DNA of 64,000 nt, taken from contig NZ_QBUD01000001.1 in NCBI RefSeq assembly GCF_003058085.1, positions 806,001 to 870,000 on the forward strand. Direction: 5' to 3'. Position 1 is the stretch's first letter. The number at the start of each line of letters is the position of its first letter. A program made the position numbers and the translations under genes. Of this stretch, positions 5,684 through 61,006 are shown in pieces. Below the pieces are notes generated by a model. It was given only the letters and a program-made list of their open reading frames with translations. It was not told where the DNA came from and ran no database searches. The DNA is from Yoonia sediminilitoris. GTDB taxonomy: Bacteria > Pseudomonadota > Alphaproteobacteria > Rhodobacterales > Rhodobacteraceae.

Positions 5684-6796
5684 TTAGCCTGTGATGGTGC
5701 TGGTTGAATTTTCTGCCGCACCTTCTTGCGCCGCATCTTGGGCAAGAGATGCTGCAGATGCAACCCGCGCCGCCAGTTTATCGGAGAAACCGTTTTGCGC
5801 CAGTCGGTAAGCCAGATGCAAGGCAGCCGCCACACCTGTTGCGTCCGCTGATCCGTGGCTTTTGATAACTGTGTGGTTGAGTCCCAGAAACACCCCGCCA
5901 TTGACGCGGCGTGGGTCGATCCTCTTGCGCAAACGCCGCAGCGATCCACGCGCCAGAAGGGCTGCGATCATGGAAAGGGGCGAATGTTTGAAACTGCTGC
6001 GCAGCAACTCTCCGATCAGGCTTGCTGTGCCTTCGCCCGTTTTCAGCGCCACATTGCCGGTGAAGCCGTCAGTAACGATCACGTCAACCTTGGCCGAGGG
6101 CAGATCGCCCCCCTCGACAAAGCCCACATAGGTGAATTCGCCAATATCGGCCGCATTGGAAATCAGTTCGTGGGCAACCTTGAGTTCGGCGCGGCCCTTG
6201 TGTTCTTCGGTGCCGACGTTGAGCAGGCCGACGCGCGGCGTTTCAATGTCCAGGCCGTTACGCGCATAAGATGCCCCCATCAGTGCATAGGTCAGCAAGT
6301 CATCCTGATCGGCGCGAATGTCTGCACCGGCGTCCAGCATCACGTTGAAGCCGCTGGGATTGCGCGATGGCCACAGGCAGGCAATCGCAGGCCGGTTTAC
6401 GCCTTCGGCCTTGCGCAGCCGCAGCATGGACATGGCCATCAATCCGCCGGTGTTGCCGCAGCTGATGCAAACGGCCGCGTCGCCATTGCGTACCGCGTCA
6501 ATCGCGGACCACATCGACGTTTTCTTGCCCTGCCGCAGGACGTGACTGGGCTTGTCGGTCATTTTGACCACATCCGGCGCGTCTGCCACGGTCACGCGCC
6601 CGGCAATGCCGTGTTTGTTGATGAGCGGGGTCAGTTCGCCGACAGGCCCGTGCAGGATGGCGCGGGCATCCTTGGCCTGGTTCAGAAACGTAGCAAGGCC
6701 CGCGACAACCGTCGCAGGCCCCTTATCGCCGCCCATTGCGTCAACAGAAAGAACATTTGCCGCTGTCGGAACGTCGTCCGTCTGGCCTTTTGTCAT
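5684..6796 (-). CDS. plsX: Phosphate acyltransferase PlsX
   Basis: PlsX makes acyl-phosphate from acyl-ACP for phosphatidic acid synthesis. Family features are 'LSVDAMGGDKGPATVVAGLA' near the N-terminus, 'ISCGNTGGLMAMSMLRL' in the middle, 'GLLNVGTEEHKG' and 'VIVTDGFTGNVALKTGEG'. The 370 residues are slightly longer than average because of an acidic/Ala-rich tail. It lies between rpmF and fabH in the conserved order that couples ribosome-protein and lipid genes in many bacteria. It is soluble or peripheral at the membrane. Confidence 0.96.
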   Translation of the reverse strand: MTKGQTDDVPTAANVLSVDAMGGDKGPATVVAGLATFLNQAKDARAILHGPVGELTPLINKHGIAGRVTVADAPDVVKMTDKPSHVLRQGKKTSMWSAIDAVRNGDAAVCISCGNTGGLMAMSMLRLRKAEGVNRPAIACLWPSRNPSGFNVMLDAGADIRADQDDLLTYALMGASYARNGLDIETPRVGLLNVGTEEHKGRAELKVAHELISNAADIGEFTYVGFVEGGDLPSAKVDVIVTDGFTGNVALKTGEGTASLIGELLRSSFKHSPLSMIAALLARGSLRRLRKRIDPRRVNGGVFLGLNHTVIKSHGSADATGVAAALHLAYRLAQNGFSDKLAARVASAASLAQDAAQEGAAENSTSTITG

Positions 6797-6823
6797 CTGT
6801 TAACCGCGCCCCTGACCGCTGCG

Positions 6824-7030
6824 TTACGCCGCGTCGTCGTCGAGGTCGATGTCGGTTGTGTCGGCAACAACTTCGCGTGTCGCGTAGTGCCCGCAAGAGG
6901 GGCAAACGTGATGCGGACGCTTGAGTTCGCCGCAGTTGTCACATTCGTTGGGGTTCGCTGCGACAAGTGCGTCGTGCGCGCGCCGGTTGTTGCGGCGTGA
7001 TTTCGATACTTTATTCTGCTGGACAGCCAT
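6824..7030 (-). CDS. rpmF: 50S ribosomal protein L32
   Basis: This 68-residue basic protein begins '[20 protein letters not shown]' and contains the zinc-binding CxxC pair, 'CDNCGE' and 'CPSCGHY'. The acidic tail (DIDLDDDAA) is usual in Rhodobacteraceae. It heads the plsX-fabH-ihfA group; yceD lies 163 bases upstream on the same strand. Confidence 0.97.
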
Positions 7031-7193
7031 GTCTCAACCCTATGCTATGCGGGCCGAAAGCCCTGTTTTACTGGTGCGTCGCCGGGGTCCTACGCCATTG
7101 TGGCAGCCCTGTCGAGTGCGATGTCAAAGAGGCCGCGAACATACTGCGATTCTGATGTTGTGCAAGTCTTTTTCCAAAGCCCGGCGCTAGCTG

Positions 7194-7751
7194 TTATTTG
7201 TCTTTCTTTTCAAGGCTGTCGCGCAGTGCGCCCAACCCGGCAAAAGGCTTTGCGTCATCGTCCGTCATGGGACTCACATCGGGATCGGCAAAAACCGTCT
7301 GCTCCAACATGGCCCCGTCTGCCCTTGGGTAAGGTGGCAGGGCCAGCGATAATGCCTCTATCATGACAGCTGCCAGATCAAGCGTCTCGGGGAGTTGCTC
7401 GACCGTGTCATCCTCGGGCATCTCGACTTCGGTCCCTTCAACCTGCGGCATTTCGGCCAGATAGGTGCGGCTGACATCTTCGTCGATGCGGGTCGTCACC
7501 GGCCCAAGAGTGACAACGCAGGCCTGTACGACCGTGGCACCCAATGTTGCCTGCAAGCCCCAGTCCTTCTGCCCAAGCGGACTGAGTTCGCCTTCAAACC
7601 GCAGCTTCTTGATCCCTTCGATCCCCAATGCGTCTGCAATGGCGCGCCGCTCCTCGGCGGTGGGCGTCAGCGAGAACGGCGAAGGACGTCTGTTGGGCAG
7701 GTCAGCCAAACGCAGATGTGATTGCGGCAGTTTCACCAAGGGTGCTTCCAT
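7194..7751 (-). CDS. yceD: YceD/DUF177 family protein
   Basis: This is a 185-residue member of the YceD family, whose gene typically precedes rpmF and which is implicated in accumulation of 23S rRNA or the large ribosomal subunit. Seen features are 'RLADLPNRRPSPF' at the start, a beta-rich middle with 'VVQACVVTLGPV' (the conserved Cys-containing strand), an acidic loop, and 'LDLAAVMIEALSLALPPYPR' followed by the tail. The ATG at 7751 is chosen because homologues begin just before 'PLVKL'; an ATG at 7796 is possible. It is divergent from bamE across about 70 bases. Confidence 0.85.
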   Translation of the reverse strand: MEAPLVKLPQSHLRLADLPNRRPSPFSLTPTAEERRAIADALGIEGIKKLRFEGELSPLGQKDWGLQATLGATVVQACVVTLGPVTTRIDEDVSRTYLAEMPQVEGTEVEMPEDDTVEQLPETLDLAAVMIEALSLALPPYPRADGAMLEQTVFADPDVSPMTDDDAKPFAGLGALRDSLEKKDK

Positions 7752-7821
7752 TCTTGAACAGGTGACGGGTTGTGCTGTAGTGGAGATAAGAGGCATAAGA
7801 GCCCAAGGCAAGAGGATGTGG

Positions 7822-8310
7822 ATGACCCCCGGTATGCGCAAAACGACATTGCAACTGCGCGTGTGTGCCTGGGTCGCGGCGGCCCTTTTCGCTAGCGGAT
7901 GCACACCAATCAACCGCTATCACGGCTTTACACCGTCTCAGGCAGAGCTTGCCGAAGTGCAGGTTGGCCAGACGACTCGCGACACCATCGTGTCCAATTT
8001 CGGACCGCCGACGTCGCAGGGCGTGCCCGGTGGCGATTCGTATTATTACGTTTCCAGCCAGTTCCGTCACTTTGGCGCATTTGCCCCGCAAGAGGTCAGC
8101 CGTGAGGTGCTTGCGATCCGTTTCACCCCGCAGGGTGTGGTGCGCAATGTGGAAAGGTTCACGCTGGAAGATGGGCAGGTCGTCGCACTTGACCGCCGCG
8201 TAACCGATGATGGCATCAATGATGTCACCGTACTTGGTCAATTGCTAAACAGTCTTGGCCGCATTGATGCGGGACAGCTCTTTGGCGGCGATAGCGAGCC
8301 AGAGTTTTAG
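7822..8310 (+). CDS. bamE: Outer-membrane assembly lipoprotein BamE (SmpA/OmlA)
   Basis: BamE is an accessory lipoprotein of the BAM complex, which inserts beta-barrel proteins into the outer membrane. The N-terminus is a lipoprotein signal ending in lipobox 'FASGC'. The mature part has the SmpA/OmlA signature 'LAEVQVGQTTRDTIVSNFGPP', followed by a 'YYYVSSQ' strand. The start at 7822 is favoured by an AGAGG ribosome site six bases upstream; ATGs at 7816 and 7834 are alternatives. At about 162 residues it has a C-terminal extension ('LGQLLNSLGRID...') usual in alphaproteobacteria. Confidence 0.9.
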   Translation: MTPGMRKTTLQLRVCAWVAAALFASGCTPINRYHGFTPSQAELAEVQVGQTTRDTIVSNFGPPTSQGVPGGDSYYYVSSQFRHFGAFAPQEVSREVLAIRFTPQGVVRNVERFTLEDGQVVALDRRVTDDGINDVTVLGQLLNSLGRIDAGQLFGGDSEPEF

Positions 8311-50667: not shown

Positions 50668-51110
50668 TGAACGTGACCCAGCCCCCTGAAATCAGGCCAC
50701 TGAGTCGCTAGTAATCCGTCTAAGCAAAGGATTTACTATGAAACTCAGATTTACAGATGAACAGATCATTGGGATTATCAGGGAATGTGAGGCTGAAGTG
50801 AAAGCGCATGAGATGTGTCGAAAGTACGGGATCGGCGATGCGACGTTTTCTAAATATAAGGCCAAGTTTGCCGGCATGAACGTGTCAGATGCAAAGAAGC
50901 TGCGCGCTCACGAGGATGAGAACAACCGGCTGAAGCGTATGCTGGCGGATGCGATCTTGGACAACGCCGCGCTTATGAATCTCGCCACAAGAAATTATAA
51001 ACGCCTGATGTAAGGCGCAAGGCAGTGTCGGACATGATGGATCGGTACGGCTTGTCTGAGTGTCGGGCGTGTGAATTTGCGGACCTGCACAGGTCAGTCT
51101 TTCAGTATCA
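50668..51110 (+). mobile_element. IS3-family element, truncated
   Basis: An IS-end-like sequence (TGAACGTGACCCAGCCCCC) starts at 50668. orfA is complete, and the beginning of orfB follows in another frame ('VSDMMDRYGLSE', 'ADLHRSVFQYQ'), then a frameshift and loss of similarity at about 51110. The catalytic DDE part and right end are absent, so it cannot move by itself. It lies outside the tRNA-Asn island, about 270 bases from its left edge. Confidence 0.75.
50738..51013 (+). CDS. IS3-family transposase OrfA
   Basis: The 91-residue helix-turn-helix protein is of the IS3 OrfA type: 'MKLRFTDEQIIGIIRECEAE', 'HEMCRKYGIGDATFSKYKAK' and a C-terminal leucine-zipper-like part 'ENNRLKRMLADAILDNAAL'. 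It is intact but without a working OrfB it is only a remnant. AAAGGA lies eight bases before the ATG. Confidence 0.85.
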   Translation: MKLRFTDEQIIGIIRECEAEVKAHEMCRKYGIGDATFSKYKAKFAGMNVSDAKKLRAHEDENNRLKRMLADAILDNAALMNLATRNYKRLM

Positions 51111-51377: not shown

Positions 51378-51396
51378 TAATGGCTCCGACGGTAGG
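51378..51396. repeat. Left attachment repeat of the island
   Basis: TAATGGCTCCGACGGTAGG is identical to 60929-60947. It reproduces the last bases of tRNA-Asn (acceptor strand, CCA end and part of the T arm) without the rest of the gene. Confidence 0.92.
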
Positions 51397-51456
51397 ACTG
51401 TAGGAATTTCAGTATTGTAATTATAACAGATACTTAATTGAATTTTGGCTTAGTTC

Positions 51457-51488
51457 TGTGTACCATATAAGGTGTATTTTGTGTACCT
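51457..51488. promoter_or_regulatory. Possible integrase arm-type sites, left end
   Basis: TGTGTACC occurs twice (51458-51465 and 51481-51488). The first is part of CTGTGTACCA, which recurs at the other end of the element inside the integrase start region. Confidence 0.5.
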
Positions 51489-51609
51489 TATTTAATGCGT
51501 CGTTTGCTGTATTTGGTGCTGAGACCGCAGTTAGAGACAGCACATGTCCAAGAGAACGTCACGGCGCGACTGCTAGGGCAAATGCCCTTTCTGGACCGTT
51601 GGTTGTCGT

Positions 51610-51762
51610 TCACTGATCAAGGTTGTTCCCGAAGGCTACTCTGGCAATCGTCAGGCGACTGATTACCCGCTTTGCTTGTTCAGTCGGTCCATACTTTTCA
51701 ACATATTCGAGCAAGGCAGTCTCCAAGTCGATTATGCACTGCTGCGTCATTTTCTCTCTCAT
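51610..51762 (-). CDS. Small hypothetical protein (50 residues)
   Basis: The minus-strand ATG at 51762 has an AAGGAGA ribosome site six bases upstream and opens 50 codons: 'MREKMTQQCIIDLETALLEY', 'VEKYGPTEQAKRVISRLTIA' and a tail to TGA at 51610. The helical, charged composition looks protein-like, unlike the competing plus-strand frame. The function is unknown; it is the first gene inside the left end of the island. Confidence 0.6.
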   Translation of the reverse strand: MREKMTQQCIIDLETALLEYVEKYGPTEQAKRVISRLTIARVAFGNNLDQ

Positions 51763-51841
51763 TTCATTTCTCCTTCGGCTTGAAGCCAGCTTAGCTTCGA
51801 GAAAGTTAACAAATCGCTAACGCTGCGACACCCGGATTGAG

Positions 51842-52000
51842 ATGCGAGACAAGGCTCTTCTTTGGATCGCAACCGAAAGTTGGTGCCGGGCTTCCGAAAT
51901 TTGTGGGTTCCGCGTGAAAGACTTGCAGAGGCAGGATGATGGTAGCAGCCTGCTTTTTGTATCTCGCTCCAAGACAAATCAAAATGGTCAGGCTGCTTAA
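51842..52000 (+). pseudogene. Tyrosine recombinase fragment
   Basis: The plus strand reads 'MRDKALLWIATESWCRASEI', 'CGFRVKDLQ' and 'LLFVSRSKTNQNGQ' before a stop. This pattern (RDxALL, RxSEI with the catalytic Arg, then the beta hairpin with RSKT) matches box I of phage-type integrases. The core-binding domain and the His-Arg-Tyr part are missing. It is likely a fossil of another integrase from an earlier insertion. Confidence 0.55.
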
Positions 52001-52085
52001 GCGGGCTGCTAGCGTAACAAGAGAAGGCAATGCGCCACGGCAGCAATGGGCCGAAAGTGAGCGCTTCCGACCCATGCTGGTGCGT

Positions 52086-52407
52086 CTAGCAGGTCACCAA
52101 TCGGTTCTCGAGCGCCAGAATCTTACCCTTTGAGGCTGCAATATTGCCTTCGTTATCGCCGCCGGTCACGCTTCCCATCGGAACACCAATCAAAAACACG
52201 CCGAATGCATCGTTGTTTGCTGCTGTGGTTTGCGCAGCTGACAGAGTGGCAAGCGTCGACCTTTCGGTGTTCAACATTGTGCGAGCCTGATTGCAGGACA
52301 AGCTGCTGAACGCATCTCCCATTGCTACTGGAGCAATTGCATCAGGGTCGTTTGGCGCAAGCTGATACAGCAACAGCGACAGACAGCAGTAATACGGTTT
52401 TCTTCAT
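52086..52407 (-). pseudogene. Small lipoprotein, frameshifted after the lipobox
   Basis: The ATG at 52407 behind AGGTGGA gives 'MKKTVLLLSVAVAVSAC', a perfect lipoprotein signal, but the frame closes four codons later. The next frame continues as 'APNDPDAIAPVAMGDAFSSL', 'CNQARTMLNTERSTLATLSA' and 'GVFLIGVPMGSVTGGDNEGN', the usual mature part of a small roseobacter lipoprotein with a short hydrophobic stretch. One base lost or gained near 52365 explains both. It may be a true lesion or a sequencing error. Confidence 0.6.
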
Positions 52408-52857
52408 GAAATCCACCTAAGTTAGAATCGCCCCCACGATGAGACTGTTAAAACGTGTGCTGGCGGTCTTAGTCAACGGGAAAGAAGAAGGCCATGAAAT
52501 CAACAACATATAGTCAGAATTCAACCGCGAAATCTGATCCGATCAGAGTCCTTTGGGTAAAGAATTTGTCTACTCTATTCCACAACCATCAGCGTAACGG
52601 ACGCTTTCAAATAGTTGGAAAAGATTCAAGCTCCCAGAAAGCACCGATGATCCTTGTTTCCGTTGGCCCTGTAATGAGAGAAGGCGAGGCTCAATTTCAG
52701 CTTAGGGGAAGCTGCACCTCGGCAAAAAGCGAACTTGGGCCAAGGTCCGGTATGGGCCGTTCGCTACGGTTTTGGTTTTTTACTTAATGACCGCAAAAGT
52801 CCGCATAGTAGTCAATGGTGATTGTTGCGGCGAATATCCGCTTTGAAGGTTCATAAC
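52408..52857. other. No convincing gene
   Basis: One 97-codon plus-strand frame (52494-52787) has a weak AAGG site but no recognisable motif, and its tail is Arg/Phe-rich as in random frames. No repeats or RNA fold are evident. Confidence 0.4.
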
Positions 52858-53121
52858 CTATGCCGATCTAGGAAACTCAGGGCCTGTTGCTCTTTCTATA
52901 CGCCAAGACATATCCCGCTTGTTACCACACCTCTTGCAGACAAACTCTTTCGCTATGACTTCTATCGGTTGGTACTCATGGAAACGCTCGTAGAGGATGT
53001 GTGTAGCCACCCAATAGCCTTTGTGACACGCAGGACAGGTGACAACCAAAACATCACGTGCAGTCAGGTGGTGGACCCTAACGGCGAACTTCAAACCTAA
53101 GGTGACAGGTGCATAGGGCAT
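52858..53121 (-). CDS. Small zinc-ribbon protein
   Basis: The 87-residue protein has two CxxC knuckles, 'VTCPACHKGYW' and 'FVCKRCGNKRDMSW', about 35 residues apart, typical of a zinc ribbon. The region between them is beta-rich and basic. The end 'WRIERATGPEF' looks conserved. The ATG at 53121 (MPYAPVTLGL) is chosen; earlier codons lack support. It lies 63 bases after the HNH-HIT gene on the same strand. It may bind nucleic acid; no family name can be given. Confidence 0.65.
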   Translation of the reverse strand: MPYAPVTLGLKFAVRVHHLTARDVLVVTCPACHKGYWVATHILYERFHEYQPIEVIAKEFVCKRCGNKRDMSWRIERATGPEFPRSA

Positions 53122-53184
53122 CCCGCATTCATACAGCAATGTTCTTGTATTGTTCCAGTGCAACCTGACCAGATAAGCTCAGAG

Positions 53185-54189
53185 CTAATACTTTTGCTTG
53201 CCAGGGATCACGCCCCGAACGCCTCCCTTTGGGTCAGCCGCATCACCATCTCGCCGTGGAATTAAGTGGACGTGAACGTGGAAGACTGTCTGACCTGCTG
53301 AGACTCCTGCGTTGATCCCCACATTGAAGCCCGTCACTTTTGGGTCTTGGTCCAGTATCCTTTGGCGTTGGACGTGTAGCATAGTTTCAATGGCATTTCG
53401 CTCGGGCTGATAGAGGTCGAAGTAGTCAGCAACGTGCCGCTTGGGGATGATTAGCGTATGGTGTTGGGTGACTGGAAAGCCATCCTCAATAGCAATGCAC
53501 AACTCATTCTCAGCTATGATGCGCCCAGCGCCTAACTCACAGAAAATACAGTCTACCTCTCGGTCACTGTAGGTCTCAGCTACGCCTCGGAAGTCAGTAT
53601 CGTCTGTGTCCCGCTTGTTAGCGTTACAGGTTGAACAGAGAGCCTGGAAGTTAAACAGATCATCAGCCCCACCTCTTGCCTTCGGGAGGATATGATCGAC
53701 CTGTAGAGCAGCTTGCCCCTCCAGTCCGCCACACAGCTCACAGCGGTATTTGGCACGCTTTAGAACTTGATAGCGAATAGACCCCGGAAGGTATTCACGC
53801 CCAGCGCCCCTGTGGCTCCATATGGCGTCCCCTCTACTGTTGGTGAAGTCGTCCAGTCGTGAATCGCAGATAGTACTCAGAGATGCTCTCTCGGCCTCTG
53901 TGAGGCCCTCCTGATTGAGCCTGTATCCAGTGATTTTGGTGCCATCTTTAGTGGGGGTAACTACACCATTCTTGGTCAGGACTTGGCCCACCATCGTCTT
54001 TGTTCTGATGGAGTAATATTCCACTTGAGACTGGTCGTAACTGAGAAGCGCCTTGGCAATTTGCTCCACTGTTGCGTGACCACCATTCTCCAGCAAAACT
54101 TTGAGCATCACAGGCTGGTAGATATGCGACATTCGCATCCTGTTAATTATGAAGTCTTCAAGATCGAACTTGTTTTTAGGTTGTTCCAT
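53185..54189 (-). CDS. Winged-helix / HNH nuclease / HIT-domain fusion protein
   Basis: The 334-residue protein joins three modules. Residues about 20-100 look like a winged helix ('VMLKVLLENGGHATVEQIAK', 'VLTKNGVVTPTKDG'). Residues about 135-195 are an HNH endonuclease ('YRCELCGG', 'LQVDHILPKARGG', 'FQALCSTCNANKRD'), with both zinc Cys pairs and the DH catalytic pair kept. Residues about 210-330 are a HIT domain ('CIFCELGAGRIIAENELCIA', 'HHTLIIPKRHVADYF') ending in the histidine triad 'FHVHVHLIPRR'. HIT proteins cleave or transfer nucleotides. Combining DNA cleavage and nucleotide chemistry suggests a defence or regulatory role (inference). The upstream thermonuclease gene is 12 bases away. 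Confidence 0.9.
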   Translation of the reverse strand: MEQPKNKFDLEDFIINRMRMSHIYQPVMLKVLLENGGHATVEQIAKALLSYDQSQVEYYSIRTKTMVGQVLTKNGVVTPTKDGTKITGYRLNQEGLTEAERASLSTICDSRLDDFTNSRGDAIWSHRGAGREYLPGSIRYQVLKRAKYRCELCGGLEGQAALQVDHILPKARGGADDLFNFQALCSTCNANKRDTDDTDFRGVAETYSDREVDCIFCELGAGRIIAENELCIAIEDGFPVTQHHTLIIPKRHVADYFDLYQPERNAIETMLHVQRQRILDQDPKVTGFNVGINAGVSAGQTVFHVHVHLIPRRDGDAADPKGGVRGVIPGKQKY

Positions 54190-54201
54190 GTTGGGGCTAG
54201 C

Positions 54202-54630
54202 CTAACAGTAGTTGGCTTGAGGTAGACGTGACCTTGCACCAGCAGGCTCTAGAGACCGATAGCGTCCACCCGAGTACCGCCTACAATCCAAGGCATGACC
54301 ATTCGAGATGACAACTGCGCCGATGTCATATTGCTGCCCATCCTCACTGATAAAGCACGTACCTACCCAGCGGTCATAAGTTCTGTCGCCATTCAGATCA
54401 CATGTTACAGTCCGTCCACGCAGAAGCCGCTCCATGAAAGTCTTGGCCTCACGTCCGTAGCGATTGGAGGTCTCAGGCGCGTCTACACCATTCAGGCGAA
54501 CGGGGGTTCCCGCAACGACAACCGTATCAGCATCACGGACGTAGGCAGTTCCACGGACTTCTTTAGCCTCAGCGGCAGATGTTGTTAGACATGTGGCTAC
54601 AAGAGCGGTCGATAGAATTTGCTTCAACAT
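54202..54630 (-). CDS. Secreted thermonuclease (SNase-like)
   Basis: This 142-residue staphylococcal-nuclease-fold protein has a Sec signal peptide ('ILSTALVATCLTTSAAEA'). Catalytic features are Asp/Thr in 'VRDADTVVV', Arg-Glu in 'VRLNGVDAPETSNRYGREA', and the second Arg in 'NGDRTYDRWVGTC'. It has Cys residues that could form a disulfide in the periplasm. It would degrade DNA or RNA outside the cytoplasm. It probably heads a transcript with the HNH-HIT and zinc-ribbon genes. Confidence 0.9.
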   Translation of the reverse strand: MLKQILSTALVATCLTTSAAEAKEVRGTAYVRDADTVVVAGTPVRLNGVDAPETSNRYGREAKTFMERLLRGRTVTCDLNGDRTYDRWVGTCFISEDGQQYDIGAVVISNGHALDCRRYSGGRYRSLEPAGARSRLPQANYC

Positions 54631-55044
54631 TTTTAGTCTTTCATTCGTTGGTGGCCCCCCGTTTCGGGGATAGGTGCCGTCATGACTTAAAAGGCAAATT
54701 TCACTCTACGGTAATTTCAGTTGTCGCTAAGGTGCAGTCCCTTGAGGGTGATGTGGATACGATTTCAACTTGTTGTGTGTGGTTTAGCGTATGCTTACAT
54801 GATGTAGCGCAGTGGTTAAACGGTTGTAGCTACGCCTAAAATCAGAAGGCGGCTGTATCTCTGGGTCAATCACTCAAGTCATAAATAAATAACTACAAAA
54901 TAATAATCAGTACTCCTACAGACAGATACTTAAGTGGGTAGCTCATAAAATGTACAGATTCTCAAGGAAGGTTCTATTGGAAAAGTGTACATTATTGTAG
55001 TTAATCAAGATGAGTAAAATTCTTATGATAGGGCCGCAACCAGA
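54631..55044. other. A+T-rich gap between helicase and thermonuclease genes
   Basis: No ORF with protein character is present. A stretch at 54799-54882 loosely resembles a tRNA (GCAGTGGTTA D-loop-like and GGGTCAATC T-loop-like) but does not fold cleanly. The promoter of the thermonuclease operon is expected at the left part. Confidence 0.4.
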
Positions 55045-56841
55045 TTATTGTTCACCCAGCCATTTAAAGTACCCAGCTTTGCCTCTTCCTTTCTCGCCAG
55101 CTTGGAACTGATAACCCAACATGGCAAGGTCCCAATCGCCCTCAAGCTGACTTCGATAACGCCTTAGATCAAAGCCCAAAGCTTGTTCAATTTCTTTAAC
55201 CGGGATGTCAGCTTTTGTGGTGCTATTTCTAATGTAGCTGAGAATACGAGCAATCCGGCCTGTAGGTTCATTAACCACTATTTCCTCATACTGTAACTGG
55301 TCTGTAGTACATCCTCGATATTGCGCTGCAAGGCTTTCAAATAGGTTAGGTTCAGTTAAGACATAAGCCGTCATTGGTGCTGCAACAGCATATTCGTCAA
55401 TAGAGCGTACCTGCCCACGTCCGACTTGTTGCATCATGTTATCGATGAACTGAGCCTTTCTTATGCGACTGTAGTCACCAACAAGTGTTCCTGAATTGGC
55501 ATCCTCTAAAGCTTCTTCGGTGATCTCTTTATCGGCAAGGGTATGGAACTTTTGCACATGGACACTCTGCGGTAGGTGGTTGTCCCAAAGATATACTACT
55601 GCTTCGCAATCCTTGAAGGCATTTGAGCCTACGGACCTTGCATGATGGGATATGTGTAATTGCTTTCCATGCTTTGTAGTTTTGATAGGATATTCAATCA
55701 CACCAGTCTTCTGTTGGTCGAGATAACCTCTTAGACAGCCCTCAAGTATCTTTTTCGGCATCGTCATATAGATGGTCGGTTCTGATATCGTGGTTAACAA
55801 CCAATCCACATAAGCTGTGACTTGATCCTTCTTAGAAGCACTAGACCATGTGTTATAGGAGCCTGCGATGTCTGGCCCGGCAAGTTGTACCAATCGCAAA
55901 CGCTCATAACTCGGTGGCGTCCAATACTCTCTTGATCCTAGGTCTTGCTTAAAGGGACCAGCGATGTCGTAAACCATGCCGCCTGTCGCACTCAGTATGA
56001 CAGTCTTTTCGATCCGTGGAATGCCCAGCACTGCTGCCGAGAATACAGGATCGTAACGTGTTTTGTCGCTGCTGCCTTTCGACAAAAATACCAGCCCCTG
56101 CAATAATGCTTCACAGAACCGCTGAACTGCAACAAGAACATCCATCGATGTAATGGTCTGGCTATGTTCTTGAAGATTGATCTTATTGATTGTCGCCGCC
56201 CACGGAAATTCCCTGTCGAGCAGAGGAGCGACGTACTTCTTACCACTTTCACGTAGCTGAACATCAAGTTCATTCGCAAAGTCTGACAGTTCAACAAATG
56301 CTTCAGGGTAGATATTGTTGCTGGTTGCCCAAGAGCGTGCCTCATCAAAGTGTTGCAGCTTTAGTGATGCCTCGCCAGTCGCGTAGATGGCTTCATCGAC
56401 TACGAACAAATCCCTATCGTCCAGCCTGCCTTGATTATATTCGATAAATGAATGCGTGAGGACGATAATCCTTTTTGACAATTCAGCGCTCTTATCAGCG
56501 AAAGCGTCACTGTGGTAATAACCCACAATATCATCGCCAAGATGCTTAGCTAAGTTGGCATAGACAGTCTCAACAGCTTCTTTGTAGGGCGTGAGGAAGC
56601 AGAGGCGTTTATCCGGATACTGTTCTGCGAAATCCACGATCCCCCAGACAGCACCCGTGGTTTTCCCTGAGCCTGTGGGCATGGGAACATAGATAGGGCC
56701 AGTCTCAAGCCCGCAAGCCAAAGACGAGATAGCCCCAGCGGTGATGTGTGCAGAATGAACCTGCCAATCAGACAGGTACGATAAACCACCGTTCTCAGAA
56801 CGCCTTTGCGCAACAGCTTTGGGGAATAGTCTGACTGCCAC
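55045..56841 (-). CDS. Superfamily-2 helicase-like ATPase
   Basis: The 598-residue protein has Walker A 'VPMPTGSGKTTGAVWG' at about 52-60, motif Ia-like 'LCFLTPYKEAVE', a Walker B 'LFVVDEAIYATGE' (DEAI rather than DEAH), motif III 'VILSATGGM', and a motif VI-like 'QQVGRGQVRS'. The N-terminus 'LSDWQVHSAHITAGAISSLA' would be the Q-motif region. It ends in an uncharacterised 100-residue C-terminal part. No nuclease or methylase domain is fused. Such helicases occur in phages, islands and defence loci; the partner here is not evident. Confidence 0.8.
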   Translation of the reverse strand: MAVRLFPKAVAQRRSENGGLSYLSDWQVHSAHITAGAISSLACGLETGPIYVPMPTGSGKTTGAVWGIVDFAEQYPDKRLCFLTPYKEAVETVYANLAKHLGDDIVGYYHSDAFADKSAELSKRIIVLTHSFIEYNQGRLDDRDLFVVDEAIYATGEASLKLQHFDEARSWATSNNIYPEAFVELSDFANELDVQLRESGKKYVAPLLDREFPWAATINKINLQEHSQTITSMDVLVAVQRFCEALLQGLVFLSKGSSDKTRYDPVFSAAVLGIPRIEKTVILSATGGMVYDIAGPFKQDLGSREYWTPPSYERLRLVQLAGPDIAGSYNTWSSASKKDQVTAYVDWLLTTISEPTIYMTMPKKILEGCLRGYLDQQKTGVIEYPIKTTKHGKQLHISHHARSVGSNAFKDCEAVVYLWDNHLPQSVHVQKFHTLADKEITEEALEDANSGTLVGDYSRIRKAQFIDNMMQQVGRGQVRSIDEYAVAAPMTAYVLTEPNLFESLAAQYRGCTTDQLQYEEIVVNEPTGRIARILSYIRNSTTKADIPVKEIEQALGFDLRRYRSQLEGDWDLAMLGYQFQAGEKGRGKAGYFKWLGEQ

Positions 56842-57216
56842 TCATTGTTCCAATCTTTCAGAGTTTGTCACAGCCAAGCACTGCCGGTGGAAAGCCTCAA
56901 GCCCTGTTTTCTATTTAGGCTGCCATTCACACCGAAGATTGTCGAGTGCGGCATTCCATCACCCATAAACACCTTGGGCTATTTCCGCTGTGGGTCAATT
57001 TTCGCTCTGAGGTGATGGCCATAGGAGTTGACCGAGATCAAAGAACATCACATCGACTTTGTTCTATTACTCACTCAGGGCAGCGGACGTTATCTCTCCG
57101 TCCTGCACCTAAGAAGGCGATCCGCAGTCCTCATCATTTGTAGGGCGGGTCGTCTTTATACCTACAGCCCTCCAGTCACAGCCTCTAAAACAAATCGGGC
57201 AAAAGTCCGCCCTTTA
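56842..57216. other. No gene; spacer before the serine recombinase region
   Basis: Short frames only. It separates two divergently transcribed genes (helicase leftward, recombinase rightward), so promoters for both are expected here, but no clear -35/-10 pair stands out. Confidence 0.45.
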
Positions 57217-57323
57217 GTAACATTAATGTCTACCTTTGAGGTGCTACCAGAATGTTACTAATATGCGGTAACAAAATACTTGCTATGTTACCATTTTATG
57301 GTACATCTAGACTCATATGTTAC
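57217..57323. promoter_or_regulatory. TGTTAC/GTAACA repeat array before the serine recombinase
   Basis: Five copies of the hexamer TGTTAC, in either orientation, lie at 57217, 57253, 57268, 57286 and 57318. They include the near-palindrome GTAACATTAATGT and the perfect inverted repeat TACCAT-TTT-ATGGTA (57289-57303). This looks like a resolvase recombination site or an autoregulatory operator set. Confidence 0.5.
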
Positions 57324-57343
57324 TACCGAGGCGGAATTGGAAT

Positions 57344-57892
57344 ATGGCAGTTATTGGATACAAACGGGTCTCGACTGTAGATCAGAACCTTGCACGTCAG
57401 GACTTAGGTGAATGCGACAGGGTATTTGAGGAAAAGAAGTCAGGTAAGAACATTACCGAAAGGCCAGCACTGCAAGAGATGCTCAGTTATGCCCGCAAGG
57501 GTGACACTGTAGTAGTACACTCCATTGACCGCATGGCGCGTGACCTGCGTGACCTACAGGACATTGTTCAGCAGCTTAATGATAAGGGTGTAGCTATTAC
57601 CTTTAACGCAGAGCGTCTGACGTTTGACCCTGAGGGTAGTGACGCCATGGCCAAGCTACAGTTGCAGATGATGGGTGCTTTCGCTGAGTTCGAGCGCAAC
57701 ATTATTAAGAAGCGTCAGCTTGAGGGCATCGCCAAGGCCAAGGCAGAAGGTCGTTACGTTAACCACGGTCGTAGGGCCACCATCGACAGAGCACAGGTCC
57801 ACAAGCTACGTGATGAAGGTTTCTCCACCTACAAGATTGCTGATAAGATGGGGATCAGTCGCATGAGTGTGCATCGCATCCTTAACCAATAG
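57344..57892 (+). CDS. Serine recombinase (resolvase/invertase type)
   Basis: The 182-residue protein has the N-terminal catalytic domain with nucleophile Ser in 'IGYKRVSTVDQN' (about residue 10), 'VVVHSIDRMARDLRDLQDIV' with the conserved Arg pair, and 'MGAFAEFERNIIKKRQLEGI' leading into helix E. The C-terminal helix-turn-helix is 'YKIADKMGISRMSVHRIL'. The size fits small resolvases and invertases. The ATG at 57344 is chosen because earlier codons (from 57317) lie inside the repeat array. It may resolve or invert part of the island. Confidence 0.92.
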   Translation: MAVIGYKRVSTVDQNLARQDLGECDRVFEEKKSGKNITERPALQEMLSYARKGDTVVVHSIDRMARDLRDLQDIVQQLNDKGVAITFNAERLTFDPEGSDAMAKLQLQMMGAFAEFERNIIKKRQLEGIAKAKAEGRYVNHGRRATIDRAQVHKLRDEGFSTYKIADKMGISRMSVHRILNQ

Positions 57893-58098
57893 CTGGCTGT
57901 AGTAATACTAGAGGGTAGCCCATGTCATAACGTGGGACCCTGAGCCGTATGCCCAAAAGGAATGATCGCGCCGCTTACTCAGATAGAAATTCTCGATAAA
58001 ATCTCAGGTTGAGTAACTAATTTCTAGCATAAAGCTTTACAGCGTAACCTATCAAAATTAGCGTCTAATAATATTATCAATTTGAGGAATTAGTTAAC

Positions 58099-58878
58099 AT
58101 GAAAAAATCTATAGCACTTCTATTGTCTGTGGCTGCCGTTTCTGCATGCGGTGGCAGTGATAGCTCAGGAGAGCAGTCCGTAAGTGTCGATGCCACTCCT
58201 ATTCGACTTTTTTCTGATGCCTCAGGTGTCGCGAGGCTGGTCGCAGTGTCAAATGGAGAAGTCACCACCGGGTATGTTATTACTCCAGAGCTCACAGCGG
58301 TACTCGCAGAAATTGAATCAACAAGTGAGGTGACCCCATTCGACATTGAGTCCCTTAGCATCGTTGATACAGGGCCAAATACTAATATTAGATCGGGTGC
58401 AATTTCCGTAGAAGGCAGCGTGCTCAATGTGCTTGCAGCCACCACTACAGATGAGGACGCCGCACTAGTTCTATTTGAAGAGCCGTCGTCCGGTCTCACC
58501 TTCTTGGTTACAGAAGGGTATCAGGCGACTAACATTCCTTCAGGAACGGCGTCTTATTCCGGTGTGTTGGGATTGCAGAACATTCTGTTTGATGCGGAGC
58601 CGGAGTTAGGTACCTTTACAGCAACAGCAGGCTTTGATGCATCACCTTCCATCACCCTCACTGGCTCCACCACAAGCTATACTGTCAATGGAACAGCATC
58701 AATTTCAGGGAGCAGCTTTTCATCAAACTCAATGACGATAAATGATGGTAGCGGACCTACTGGAGCCAGCATGAATGGAGATTTTCATGGCAGTGGGGCC
58801 AACAGCGTAGCAGGAGTGATCTACTCGAATGATGCATCTGGAGAGTTCCGAGGTGGTTTTGTTGGGTCTCAGGATTAG
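58099..58878 (+). CDS. Surface-type lipoprotein with TbpB-like domain
   Basis: The 259-residue protein has a lipoprotein signal with lipobox 'AAVSACGGS'. The mature part is Ser/Thr/Gly-rich beta structure. The C-terminal 90 residues ('TASISGSSFSSNSMTINDG', 'MNGDFHGSGANSVAGVIYSN', 'GEFRGGFVGSQ') follow the transferrin-binding-protein-B-like beta-barrel pattern. Related proteins occur at the cell surface and in heme or metal capture. AGGAA lies nine bases before the ATG. It is isolated cargo in the island. Confidence 0.75.
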   Translation: MKKSIALLLSVAAVSACGGSDSSGEQSVSVDATPIRLFSDASGVARLVAVSNGEVTTGYVITPELTAVLAEIESTSEVTPFDIESLSIVDTGPNTNIRSGAISVEGSVLNVLAATTTDEDAALVLFEEPSSGLTFLVTEGYQATNIPSGTASYSGVLGLQNILFDAEPELGTFTATAGFDASPSITLTGSTTSYTVNGTASISGSSFSSNSMTINDGSGPTGASMNGDFHGSGANSVAGVIYSNDASGEFRGGFVGSQD

Positions 58879-59040
58879 TCCTAGCCTTACTACTGTTACA
58901 TCCAGAGGTGATCGAAGTGCTTTAGGGGGCTGGCTTAATCGCTAGTCCCCATTTTGCTTTGCTAATGTTCATTGGTAGATGAGCGGTCACTCCGAGAATG
59001 CTTCTGCGGAGAAGACAACGGGACCAGAGTGACCGCAGGT

Positions 59041-59101
59041 GTTACCTCGGGCCTACGCATACACCTACCGTTAGGGTTATCTCGGGCCTACGCATACACC
59101 T
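59041..59101. repeat. Two 26-bp direct repeats
   Basis: Positions 59041-59066 and 59076-59101 differ at one base. The shared core begins CTCGGGCCTACGCAT. The purpose is unknown; they lie between the lipoprotein gene and the tRNA-like gene. Confidence 0.9.
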
Positions 59102-59190
59102 GACACGCAGATACCAACGCGCCAAGATCGTACTTTGATTTTAGTCAATCTGAATCAGGTGCAAGAAAGGATAACACATCAACGTTTTTG

Positions 59191-59229
59191 ACCTACGGGA
59201 AATACCTACGGGAAATACCTACGGGAAAT
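59191..59229. repeat. 13-bp unit repeated three times
   Basis: ACCTACGGGAAAT is present in three perfect tandem copies. It is non-coding and could vary in copy number. Confidence 0.95.
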
Positions 59230-59280
59230 GCCTTTGCCGAAATTTAATAATTGTCTTAAAAATAAGGGGCTTAAATCCAA

Positions 59281-59360
59281 TGGCAGTCCCTAGGGGAATC
59301 GAACCCCTCTTTCCAGGTTGAAAACCTGGCGTCCTAACCGATAGCGGTCACTCTGGGGAC
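59281..59360 (-). tRNA. tRNA-Glu (TTC)-like gene, aberrant
   Basis: The anticodon arm (CCAGG, loop TTTTCAA, CCTGG; anticodon TTC), T arm (AGGGG, TTCGATT, CCCCT) and acceptor (GTCCCCA/TAGGGAC, one C-A mismatch) can be folded on the minus strand and CCA is encoded. The D arm is abnormal, with a weak GTG/GAC stem and an enlarged loop that could fold as GACCG/CGGTT. Two bases stand between acceptor and CCA instead of one. It may be a mobile-element tRNA or a decaying copy. Confidence 0.55.
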
Positions 59361-59372
59361 GCCATGAGCATC

Positions 59373-60887
59373 TTAATCCAAACCCCATTCGGTAACTGCA
59401 AAAAGCCTGTCTAGGTCGTCTTTATAAACATTCGGGGGAGCGCCTGTGCCGTACCTCATAGCCACCGCAGACGATTGTGTCGTCTTATGCCCCTGAAGGT
59501 AATCGAGAACCTCTGATGATACTCTGGCGGCCCTCCCACGGGCCTTGAAGGTGTGTCTCGTAGAATAGGAAACAAGTTCAGGGTCACTGACCTGCATTTC
59601 AACTCGGATCAATTTGTTTAGCTGAATGCTGACGTTGTCCAAGGCTGATCTAGGGGCATAGGCACCGAATGCACCATCCTCAGGGTTGTCAGGCATCTGA
59701 TAGCTGCGCAGGGCGTCGAGCATGGGGGATACTAACGGTACTGACCTTTCTAGGCCACCTTTCTCTAGCTTCCGGAACTTGTTGTTTCTGATCTTGATGT
59801 GTGGAGTGTTGCTGGTGAGCGATATGTCTTTGACTTGAAGTCCAGCGGCCTCACTAGTCCGGCACCCTGTGTATATCATCAAAAGACCGATCAAACGTAT
59901 TTCAGGTATAATTTTTGCCCTGACAACGACTTCAAACCGGATCAACTCGCTTGGCGTAAATGACCTTCTGTCCGTAGCATCATCCCTTTCAGCCGACATA
60001 TTCCGTAAGCCCTCAAACGGGTTCAAGATTGTCCCGTCCTGATACTCCTTACGCGCAAAATTAAAGACTGCACCTATCTGAGAGGCATAGCGCCCAATAC
60101 TACCTTCTTTGGCGGGCTTTGGGCCTTGTCTGTAGGTTTCAAGGAAAGCTCTAGCGTCCTGCCGATTGATTGCTTTCAGCTTGGTATCTGAACCACCAAC
60201 AAAATGCCTGAACTTGTCATATAGATTGCGTGTCTTGGTCTCGAACTTCTTTTGGTCGTGAGGATCACGTCGCTTCTCACGTGCGTTGATAGCCAAGTAC
60301 GCGTCAACAACCTCACCCCAAGTCAACTCAAGGGATGTGCTCTCCTTGCCAAATACAATCCGGCTTGCTGCCTGCATTATGTCCGTCGGATCATCCCTCT
60401 TGTATTGAGCATCCCAAGTTTGCGGATCGACCCCAATTTCTTGACTGCTGAGGTATGCTCCAGTAAACATTTCATCCAGTGCTTCCCAACGCTGCTTGTC
60501 TTTGTAGAACTGTTCTTTCTGCTCTTTGGTGTAGTCGGCGGGCAGGGTGGGCTTTTGGTCAGGGTGGAATCCCTCACGCATTAGCATTTGCCTCGCCGCA
60601 CTCATAACCTCATGGCGGGTCAGTTTCTGTTCGCTTGAAGATAGCTGGCTGTCAGCAATCCTAAGCTCAGCATCTGCAAGTTGGTTAGCTCTCGCTAGTC
60701 TAATCAATGCTGTCGTTTCATCTTTGGTTTCAAGTCGCTGCTTGAACTCCAGTTTTCCAATAACCTTTTGAAGCCGTGCAGGGATTCTACGCCTGTAGCT
60801 GTACCAACCCGTCTTTGATCTTTTTAGGTATTTGCTGCCCACCTGTGTACCATCTGTGTACTGAATTTGTGTACCAGATTTGGTCAA
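59373..60887 (-). CDS. Site-specific tyrosine integrase
   Basis: The 504-residue recombinase has a long N-terminal arm-binding and core-binding region ('TGWYSYRRRIPARLQKVIGK', 'YRQGPKPAKEGSIGRYASQI'). The C-terminal catalytic domain carries Arg in 'YTGCRTSEAAGLQ' (about 350), His-Arg in 'YSTRHTFKARGRAA', the second His in 'LQGHKTTQSSAV' and Tyr in 'AMRYGTGAP' near the end. Its start is 45 bases from the tRNA-Asn 3' end, the usual placement for an element inserted there. Repeats of TGTGTACC fall within its first codons. Transcribed away from the tRNA. Confidence 0.93.
   Translation of the reverse strand: MTKSGTQIQYTDGTQVGSKYLKRSKTGWYSYRRRIPARLQKVIGKLEFKQRLETKDETTALIRLARANQLADAELRIADSQLSSSEQKLTRHEVMSAARQMLMREGFHPDQKPTLPADYTKEQKEQFYKDKQRWEALDEMFTGAYLSSQEIGVDPQTWDAQYKRDDPTDIMQAASRIVFGKESTSLELTWGEVVDAYLAINAREKRRDPHDQKKFETKTRNLYDKFRHFVGGSDTKLKAINRQDARAFLETYRQGPKPAKEGSIGRYASQIGAVFNFARKEYQDGTILNPFEGLRNMSAERDDATDRRSFTPSELIRFEVVVRAKIIPEIRLIGLLMIYTGCRTSEAAGLQVKDISLTSNTPHIKIRNNKFRKLEKGGLERSVPLVSPMLDALRSYQMPDNPEDGAFGAYAPRSALDNVSIQLNKLIRVEMQVSDPELVSYSTRHTFKARGRAARVSSEVLDYLQGHKTTQSSAVAMRYGTGAPPNVYKDDLDRLFAVTEWGLD
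60843..60876. promoter_or_regulatory. Possible integrase arm-type sites, right end
   Basis: TGTGTAC(C/T) occurs three times (60844, 60855, 60868) within the first codons of the integrase. The repeat encodes the repeated GTQ/YTD/GTQ residues. Confidence 0.5.
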
Positions 60888-60928
60888 AACTCATTTATAG
60901 TCAATGAATAAAGGCCATCTCTAGGGGG

Positions 60929-60947
60929 TAATGGCTCCGACGGTAGG
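60929..60947. repeat. Right attachment repeat, overlapping tRNA-Asn
   Basis: TAATGGCTCCGACGGTAGG is identical to 51378-51396 and includes the CCA end and 3' acceptor strand of tRNA-Asn. Confidence 0.92.
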
Positions 60948-61006
60948 GATCGAACCTACGACCAATTGATTAACAGTCAACTGCTCTACCGCTGAGCTAC
61001 GTCGGA
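60932..61006 (-). tRNA. tRNA-Asn (GTT)
   Basis: The complete cloverleaf has acceptor TCCGACG/CGTCGGA, D arm GCTC...GAGC and anticodon arm GTTGA, loop CTGTTAA, TCAAT (anticodon GTT). The T arm is GTAGG, TTCGATC, CCTAC, and CCA is encoded. Its 3' end is the integration target of the neighbouring island and stays intact. Confidence 0.97.

Follow-up and report, generated by a model that had tools for sequence, protein, structure and literature searches.

A predicted winged helix-HNH-HIT fusion of Yoonia sediminilitoris and the recurrent association of related HIT genes with restriction-type nucleases

Restriction of modified DNA is usually described as the work of a reader domain and a nuclease, sometimes together with an NTPase. 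Winged-helix fusion endonucleases, including those that join a winged helix to HNH, are reported to be modification-dependent and can be m6A-dependent, and several of them are toxic in Dam+ cells; HtuIII, a PUA-wH-HNH enzyme, nicks weakly (PMC11037411, available sections). SauUSI is an m5C-dependent type IV enzyme with a PLD-NTPase-DUF3427 architecture (PMC3874153, in part). As for HIT enzymes, HinT and MccH hydrolyse adenylate phosphoramidate bonds (PMC7157772, in part), and ThsC is a HIT gene that PADLOC types in some Thoeris systems (PMC8565338, in part). In the window analysed here, a stretch of 64,000 nucleotides from Yoonia sediminilitoris, a predicted winged helix, an HNH nuclease domain and a HIT domain are found in a single protein of 334 residues.

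The gene encoding this fusion occupies positions 53185-54189 on the minus strand, as supported by its open reading frame and translation, by Pfam matches to HNH and HIT, and by the family alignment; the plus strand of the same interval, read in the same register, is interrupted by many stops. The HNH domain (residues 150-194; 53608-53742, minus strand) matches PF01844 above the gathering cut-off, with an E value of 1.6e-11, and contains two CxxC pairs and a DH motif (C150-x2-C153, D165-H166, N180 and C185-x2-C188-N189). The HIT domain (residues 214-334; 53188-53550, minus strand) is defined by a match to PF01230 at residues 223-314, again above the gathering cut-off (9.2e-19), by alignments, and by matches to nucleotide-binding or nucleotide-hydrolysing HIT proteins of the PDB; its fold is further backed by Foldseek matches to HIT proteins (best E 1.8e-8). 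It carries a CxFC motif, the triad H304-V-H306-V-H308, which fits H-phi-H-phi-H-phi-phi, and a C-terminal GGVRGVIPxKxxY. Both the HNH module with intact Cys pairs and DH motif and the full HIT domain with its HVHVH triad had been put forward in the original prediction, which named neither the strand nor an island, and both were borne out.

That prediction also placed a winged helix at the N-terminus, and here the fold stood, without a family to assign it to. The domain is predicted at residues ~10-93 (53911-54162, minus strand) from AlphaFold2 models, and in the full-length model it is followed by a linker helix at residues 98-128 (53806-53898, minus strand). The full-length model, built from the family alignment, has a mean pLDDT of 84.2 and a pTM of 0.50, which makes it a better guide to each domain by itself than to how the domains are arranged; residues 1-125 modelled alone (mean pLDDT 87.6, pTM 0.60) adopt the helix-helix-helix-wing order, with a two-strand wing. 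The N-terminal part gave nothing above the Pfam cut-off and no sequence match in the PDB below E 0.3. Foldseek searches with its model returned largely winged-helix proteins, as judged by eye (Fur, SAMD1, KAT6A and linker histones), none of them significant (best E 0.12, low TM-scores), and neither the PDB profile search nor Foldseek gave a significant match to any DNA reader. It is reasonable to treat this 'winged helix' as a fold prediction without an identified family. A scan for promoters and terminators gave results near chance.

How does this protein compare with the described systems? HhiV4I, SruGXI and HtuIII resemble it in combining a winged helix with HNH and in being mostly solitary genes, but many members of that group are PUA fusions and those tested are nearly all haloarchaeal (PMC11037411, available sections). 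The likeness meant here is one of domain plan. No HIT domain is mentioned for that group: neither HIT nor histidine triad nor HinT occurs as a word in the text of PMC11037411. SauUSI, as described in the available part of PMC3874153, has no HIT, and its nuclease and reader differ from those of the window protein. The EVE-HNH (6yex), ScoMcrA-type SBD-HNH and SRA-HNH enzymes are type IV HNH nucleases that adjoin the fusion or its HIT relatives, yet they have other reader domains, and their HIT is either absent or a separate gene. The fusion has in common with HinT and Fhit the HIT fold and the HxHxH triad, which is changed in MccH (PMC7157772, in part); these proteins stand alone, whereas the HIT group of the fusion has a conserved C-terminal GGVRGVIPxKxxY and is here fused with a nuclease. 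ThsC of Thoeris type II likewise places a HIT protein in a defence context, to which the fusion adds HNH; membership in Thoeris was rejected, the PADLOC ThsC profile matching over the HIT core only (1.5e-9). In aprataxin, a C-terminal zinc finger comes after the HIT domain. Since the window protein ends right after its HIT domain, at residue 334, it has no aprataxin-like zinc finger, and membership in that family was likewise rejected.

Among the titles and abstracts listed by searches of the open, non-subscription literature, none linked a HIT domain with HNH or type IV restriction, and those on HIT with defence or DUF3427 likewise gave nothing pertinent; HIT as a whole word is absent from the texts on restriction enzymes that were searched, and the available parts of PMC12839542 and PMC5512222 hold nothing on HIT domains. 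The combination of HIT and HNH may have been recorded by others, for example in domain-architecture databases.

The fusion is most likely cargo of an integrated genomic island of 9.6 kb (51378-60947), a reading that follows from a repeat at a tRNA-Asn gene, an integrase and a drop in G+C. The 19-bp repeat, TAATGGCTCCGACGGTAGG, occurs in exact copies at 51378-51396, the far end of the island, and at 60929-60947, a likely att site at the 3' end of tRNA-Asn(GTT) (60932-61006, minus strand; ARAGORN), which is the likely integration site. The G+C content of the island is ~0.44-0.53 per kb, against 0.55-0.61 across most of the flanks, the left flank at 48.0-51.0 kb being likewise low (0.49-0.55). 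Besides the fusion, the island contains a tyrosine integrase (59373-60887, minus strand; PF00589, phrog_1), a serine resolvase (57317-57892, plus strand; PF00239) and, on the same minus strand as the fusion, a DEAD/ResIII helicase (55045-56841; PF00270) and an SNase-like protein with an apparent signal peptide, as judged by eye (54202-54630; PF00565), whose gene lies 12 bp ahead of the start codon of the fusion. A small ORF with CxxC pairs, possibly a zinc ribbon given sub-threshold matches only, is found 21 bp past the fusion stop codon (52858-53163, minus strand). Just beyond the island, at 50738-51013 of the window, lies a transposase OrfA-like gene (Pfam HTH_Tnp_1).

The fusion is a rare accessory gene. 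Our GTDB scan yielded 402 pattern matches and 379 relatives, of which 80 were kept, and 56 of these 80 reach from residue 18 or earlier to residue 328 or later of the fusion. Their hosts include Rhodobacterales, sphingomonads, SAR86, Methylophaga, Synechococcus, Cyanobium, Gemmataceae, and Dehalococcoidia and Firmicutes bins. A profile of the winged helix matches only 5 of 385 genomes of the class and 5 of 398 of the phylum, its own genome being counted in each, together with 13 viral loci; followed through, these matches place the winged helix only in the fusion or its evident derivatives. With tblastn, the full-length fusion at 80% cover was found in 0 of 102 matching plasmid records and 0 of 167 matching phage records.

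Conservation was determined on an alignment of 56 rows, that is, the window protein and 55 relatives, seven of which come from IMG/VR and may duplicate genome rows, and two of which (L038, at a contig edge, and L044, with a transposase inside; loci are given by our own numbers) miss the first 41 residues. Each of the nine HNH positions checked is present in all 56 rows, and so are H244, H304 and H308, while H306 is kept in 54 and replaced by Q in L049 and by Y in L066. The alignment excludes L056, L064, L067, L070, L071, L074-L076, L078-L086 and L091, and with them the majority of the broken or truncated relatives. Of the 56 full-span loci, no fewer than 10 have broken frames (L071, L074, L075, L078-L081, L085, L086 and L091), some perhaps through sequencing errors in draft bins. 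The original prediction would have been refuted by homologues confined to housekeeping contexts, or by loss of either catalytic motif in most of them. We found neither among the full fusions, the exception being the HNH-less proteins of L252 and L253, which have metabolic surroundings.

The survey of defence genes among the neighbours that had been proposed as a check came out in its favour. PADLOC families matched at 1e-10 number 97 for the 146 neighbours and 4 for a control of 115 genes, which were taken without matching by taxon from 13 arbitrary stretches of 12 kb in related genomes. A single gene may hit many families, and much of the 97 must come down to the same few genes. Of 171 candidate nearest genes, the neighbour set takes in 146, drawn from 52 of 57 loci; five loci whose genes are partial were omitted, as were nine other, mostly long genes, including the McrB-cluster genes of L046 and L049, and the set is taken without the window's own locus. 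Among the PADLOC matches listed are HNH (7 members), mREase_IV (3) and PDC-S12 (3), together with single-member families, among them DRT5, UzuA, methylases and another two PDC candidates; no Thoeris family is among the 25 of 97 listed. As for methyltransferases, no Pfam family of this kind has two or more members among the 146 neighbours, the PADLOC families among the matches listed account for one gene each, and one C-5 methylase is among the 25 of 89 Pfam families listed, the other 64 being single-member families.

Several neighbours are components of type IV restriction. McrB and McrC are encoded immediately upstream of the fusion in L046, cluster relatives of both lie beside it in L049, and an McrC relative lies one ORF away in L056. 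Directly downstream of the fusion, an EVE-HNH-like protein of 312-326 residues is found in L055, L057, L058, L063, L073, L074 and L086, in two of which (L074 and L086) the fusion is broken. Identity to the L057 copy, taken over its length, is 74-88% for these proteins and 41% for that of L063, and the L057 protein matches PDB 6yex end to end (8.7e-71), its best solved match, which we take to be the EVE-HNH type IV enzyme VcaM4I. Pfam HNH_2 has seven members in the neighbour set, which took in six of the seven EVE-HNH-like genes.

Genes for integrases or resolvases are found near many copies of the fusion. Seven prophage-like loci of Rhodobacterales (L013, L025, L027, L030, L036, L102 and L103) have an integrase-cluster gene two genes upstream, which in L030 encodes a serine integrase matching phrog_95 (integrase). 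A packaging nuclease was considered and set aside, as in these loci the gene sits by the integrase and none of the ten neighbours scanned is a terminase. In L028, another Rhodobacterales genome, relatives of the island helicase and integrase lie near the fusion. SNase-cluster genes are directly beside the fusion in the window, in L045 (1-bp overlap) and in L063 (37 bp), and farther away in L029, L054 and L084; the order varies, the SNase-like gene following the fusion in L045 (9005-9436) and preceding it in the window and in L063 (7307-7948). A fixed operon with the helicase or the SNase-like gene was rejected, the helicase recurring in one other clustered locus and an adjoining SNase in two. 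One further neighbour cluster is common to L026 (7424-7963), L028 (6943-7500) and L045 (7430-8002), and its L026 member matches the PADLOC candidate PDC-S12.

Related HIT genes outside the fusion are repeatedly coupled with independent nucleases of restriction type, and several of these nucleases are type IV. The stand-alone relatives, which have in common the C-terminal PRGGVRGVIPxKxxY in our alignment, were picked by similarity, independently of their neighbours, and make up 22 loci after exclusion of L096 (decayed), L248 (a short HIT frame in a fusion-bearing genome) and L235 (the same place as L099). An HNH gene overlaps the HIT gene, or lies at most 18 bp from it, in 7 of the 22 (L087, L090, L092, L093, L095, L098 and L099), whereas HNH frames are found in 0 of 30 loci of generic HIT genes with flanks of ~1.5 kb (Fisher p 0.0013, treating the loci as independent), using for both sets HNH profiles built in part from those very neighbours. 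Because 9 of the 30 control loci had no recognised HIT ORF, every frame of all 30 was scanned; L097 and L244 lie close to contig ends, where an HNH neighbour could be missed. Pfam HNH is matched by all seven partners, by six above the gathering cut-off and by that of L098 just under it (20.4 versus 22 bits).

These partners are diverse. That of L090 is an SRA-HNH protein, whose SRA falls under the Pfam cut-off yet matches solved SRA domains; that of L093 combines HNH with a sulfur-binding domain like SBDHga1 (7.4e-15); that of L095 resembles ScoMcrA (2.6e-8); and the other four are HNH_4-type proteins. Among plasmids, an HNH gene adjoins the HIT gene in 4 of the best 10 of 102 records, by its own annotation in pPNAP03, Aromatoleum plasmid 2 and a Hymenobacter plasmid and by profile in Persicobacter pPP10, and is absent in 6 of the 10, three of which have a HIT without the GGVR motif. 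The single phage inspected, phiSASD1, has no annotated HNH next to its HIT gene. Since 15 of the 22 stand-alone loci have no HNH neighbour, and several lie amid housekeeping genes (for example L237, L238 and L101), these HIT proteins are not solely partners of restriction. On the HIT tree the seven HNH-adjacent rows are spread out, requiring 7 changes, no fewer than random labels, of which at least 5 are forced by starred branches; this scatter suggests repeated pairing, loss or exchange.

In three alphaproteobacterial genomes, HIT is fused to DUF3427. The protein of L242 (1189-4686) reads HIT-PLDc_2-ResIII-Helicase_C-DUF3427 by Pfam, that is, the PLD-helicase-DUF3427 architecture of SauUSI with HIT added in front; L243 (1866-5444) has the same layout as judged by sequence, and L241 (4298-5326) is HIT-DUF3427 (Pfam). 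In a tree of 52 HIT domains, whose support values are rough, the bootstrap not having settled, the three DUF3427-fused HITs and three viral ones are split from the rest by a well-supported branch, and thus form a related subgroup rather than the fusion's own.

On the basis of sequence, we read the fusion as a restriction-type nuclease encoded by one gene, which is most likely modification-dependent (type IV-like) and has the HIT domain as a presumably active accessory, and we assign this reading a probability of about 0.58; that the protein acts in restriction or defence against foreign DNA is, likewise, probable. The reading of a one-gene, mark-reading nuclease follows from the winged-helix-HNH plan with HIT, from the lack of a recurrent methylase and from the type IV neighbours of several homologues, and an intact HNH without a recurrent methylase partner would in itself fit a type IV restriction enzyme. 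The original prediction is partly supported: an undescribed defence enzyme fits the defence and island contexts, and no print record was found in the literature searched. Its defence role is one that we infer, and the AMP-DNA adduct that the prediction offered as a possible HIT substrate is conjectural. Mechanistically, the winged helix would read a mark or feature of foreign DNA, the zinc-stabilised HNH, judging by its intact catalytic residues, would cut nearby, and the HIT domain may act on a nucleotidyl bond tied to the cutting event. Our first choice for this last step, tentative at best, is that HIT removes AMP from ligase-adenylated ends or hydrolyses a related NMP-X product, such that cuts would not be resealed. 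A substrate independent of reader and nuclease, such as a ligase-adenylated end, could explain why these HITs are paired with such varied enzymes.

Extending this, the related HIT enzymes might be a general helper of modification-dependent restriction that strips nucleotidyl groups, a proposal that we consider speculative and rather unlikely as a whole. HIT would have been recruited repeatedly to winged-helix-HNH, SRA-HNH, SBD-HNH, other HNH and SauUSI-like nucleases, where it would strip the 5' AMP that ligase adds, or take nucleotides with thio or other modifications off digested DNA, leaving cuts in modified phage DNA unrepaired or products unable to poison the host. The coupling of HIT to several type IV enzymes is a stronger clue than the domains of the fusion alone, and suggests that DNA restriction in bacteria has a helper activity not recognised so far. 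If a conserved enzyme that processes nucleotides is coupled to such nucleases, whether fused or as a paired gene, these systems would gain one more activity, and a concrete biochemical question arises, namely, what HIT does after, or before, the cut.

The same observations bear on other explanations. HIT could bind or hydrolyse Ap4A, an alarmone or another signal and thereby switch a general DNase of HNH type, with death of the infected cell as the outcome; the nucleotide-related matches of the HIT domain, the typing of ThsC in some Thoeris systems (PMC8565338, in part) and a neighbourhood rich in defence genes all speak for such a nucleotide-gated suicide nuclease. The HIT partners, however, have mark readers of their own (SRA, SBD and DUF3427) and no obvious need for a nucleotide switch, and no nucleotide synthase is among the ten recurrent neighbours scanned, which leaves this explanation unlikely in our view. 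That the HNH nuclease serves a mobile element in homing, recombination or packaging, HIT being incidental, we regard as improbable: integrase or resolvase genes near many copies and the decayed serial copies in cyanobacterial L078 and L086 agree with it, but the fusion is also found beside McrBC and EVE-HNH genes, its HIT residues are conserved as well as those of HNH, and other restriction-type nucleases are coupled to relatives of its HIT domain.

DNA repair of the aprataxin type, with HIT cleaning adenylated DNA ends and HNH as an end trimmer, appears very improbable given the sparse distribution, the islands and defence neighbours, and the lack of space for a C-terminal zinc finger, even though HIT chemistry suits AMP removal and the HNH-less proteins of L252 and L253, whose surroundings are metabolic, retain both winged helix and HIT. 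In these two genomes of one genus, which are also those of L184 and L185 (winged helix-HIT without HNH), the winged helix is joined straight to HIT (L252, 2498-3652; L253, 4272-5396), the L253 frame stops early, and HNH was not found within 8-10 kb.

Two minor observations concern decay and interruption of the gene. In the cyanobacterial loci L086 (1577-9053) and L078 (1370-8922), decayed gene pieces follow one another in series, as if the site had been repeatedly replaced. In L044, a Mutator-family transposase frame (6656-7957) lies immediately ahead of residue 42 of the fusion; in L018, a match of like size to the same gene, the first residues are found ~1.4 kb upstream. Residue 42 is likewise where the contig of L038 starts.
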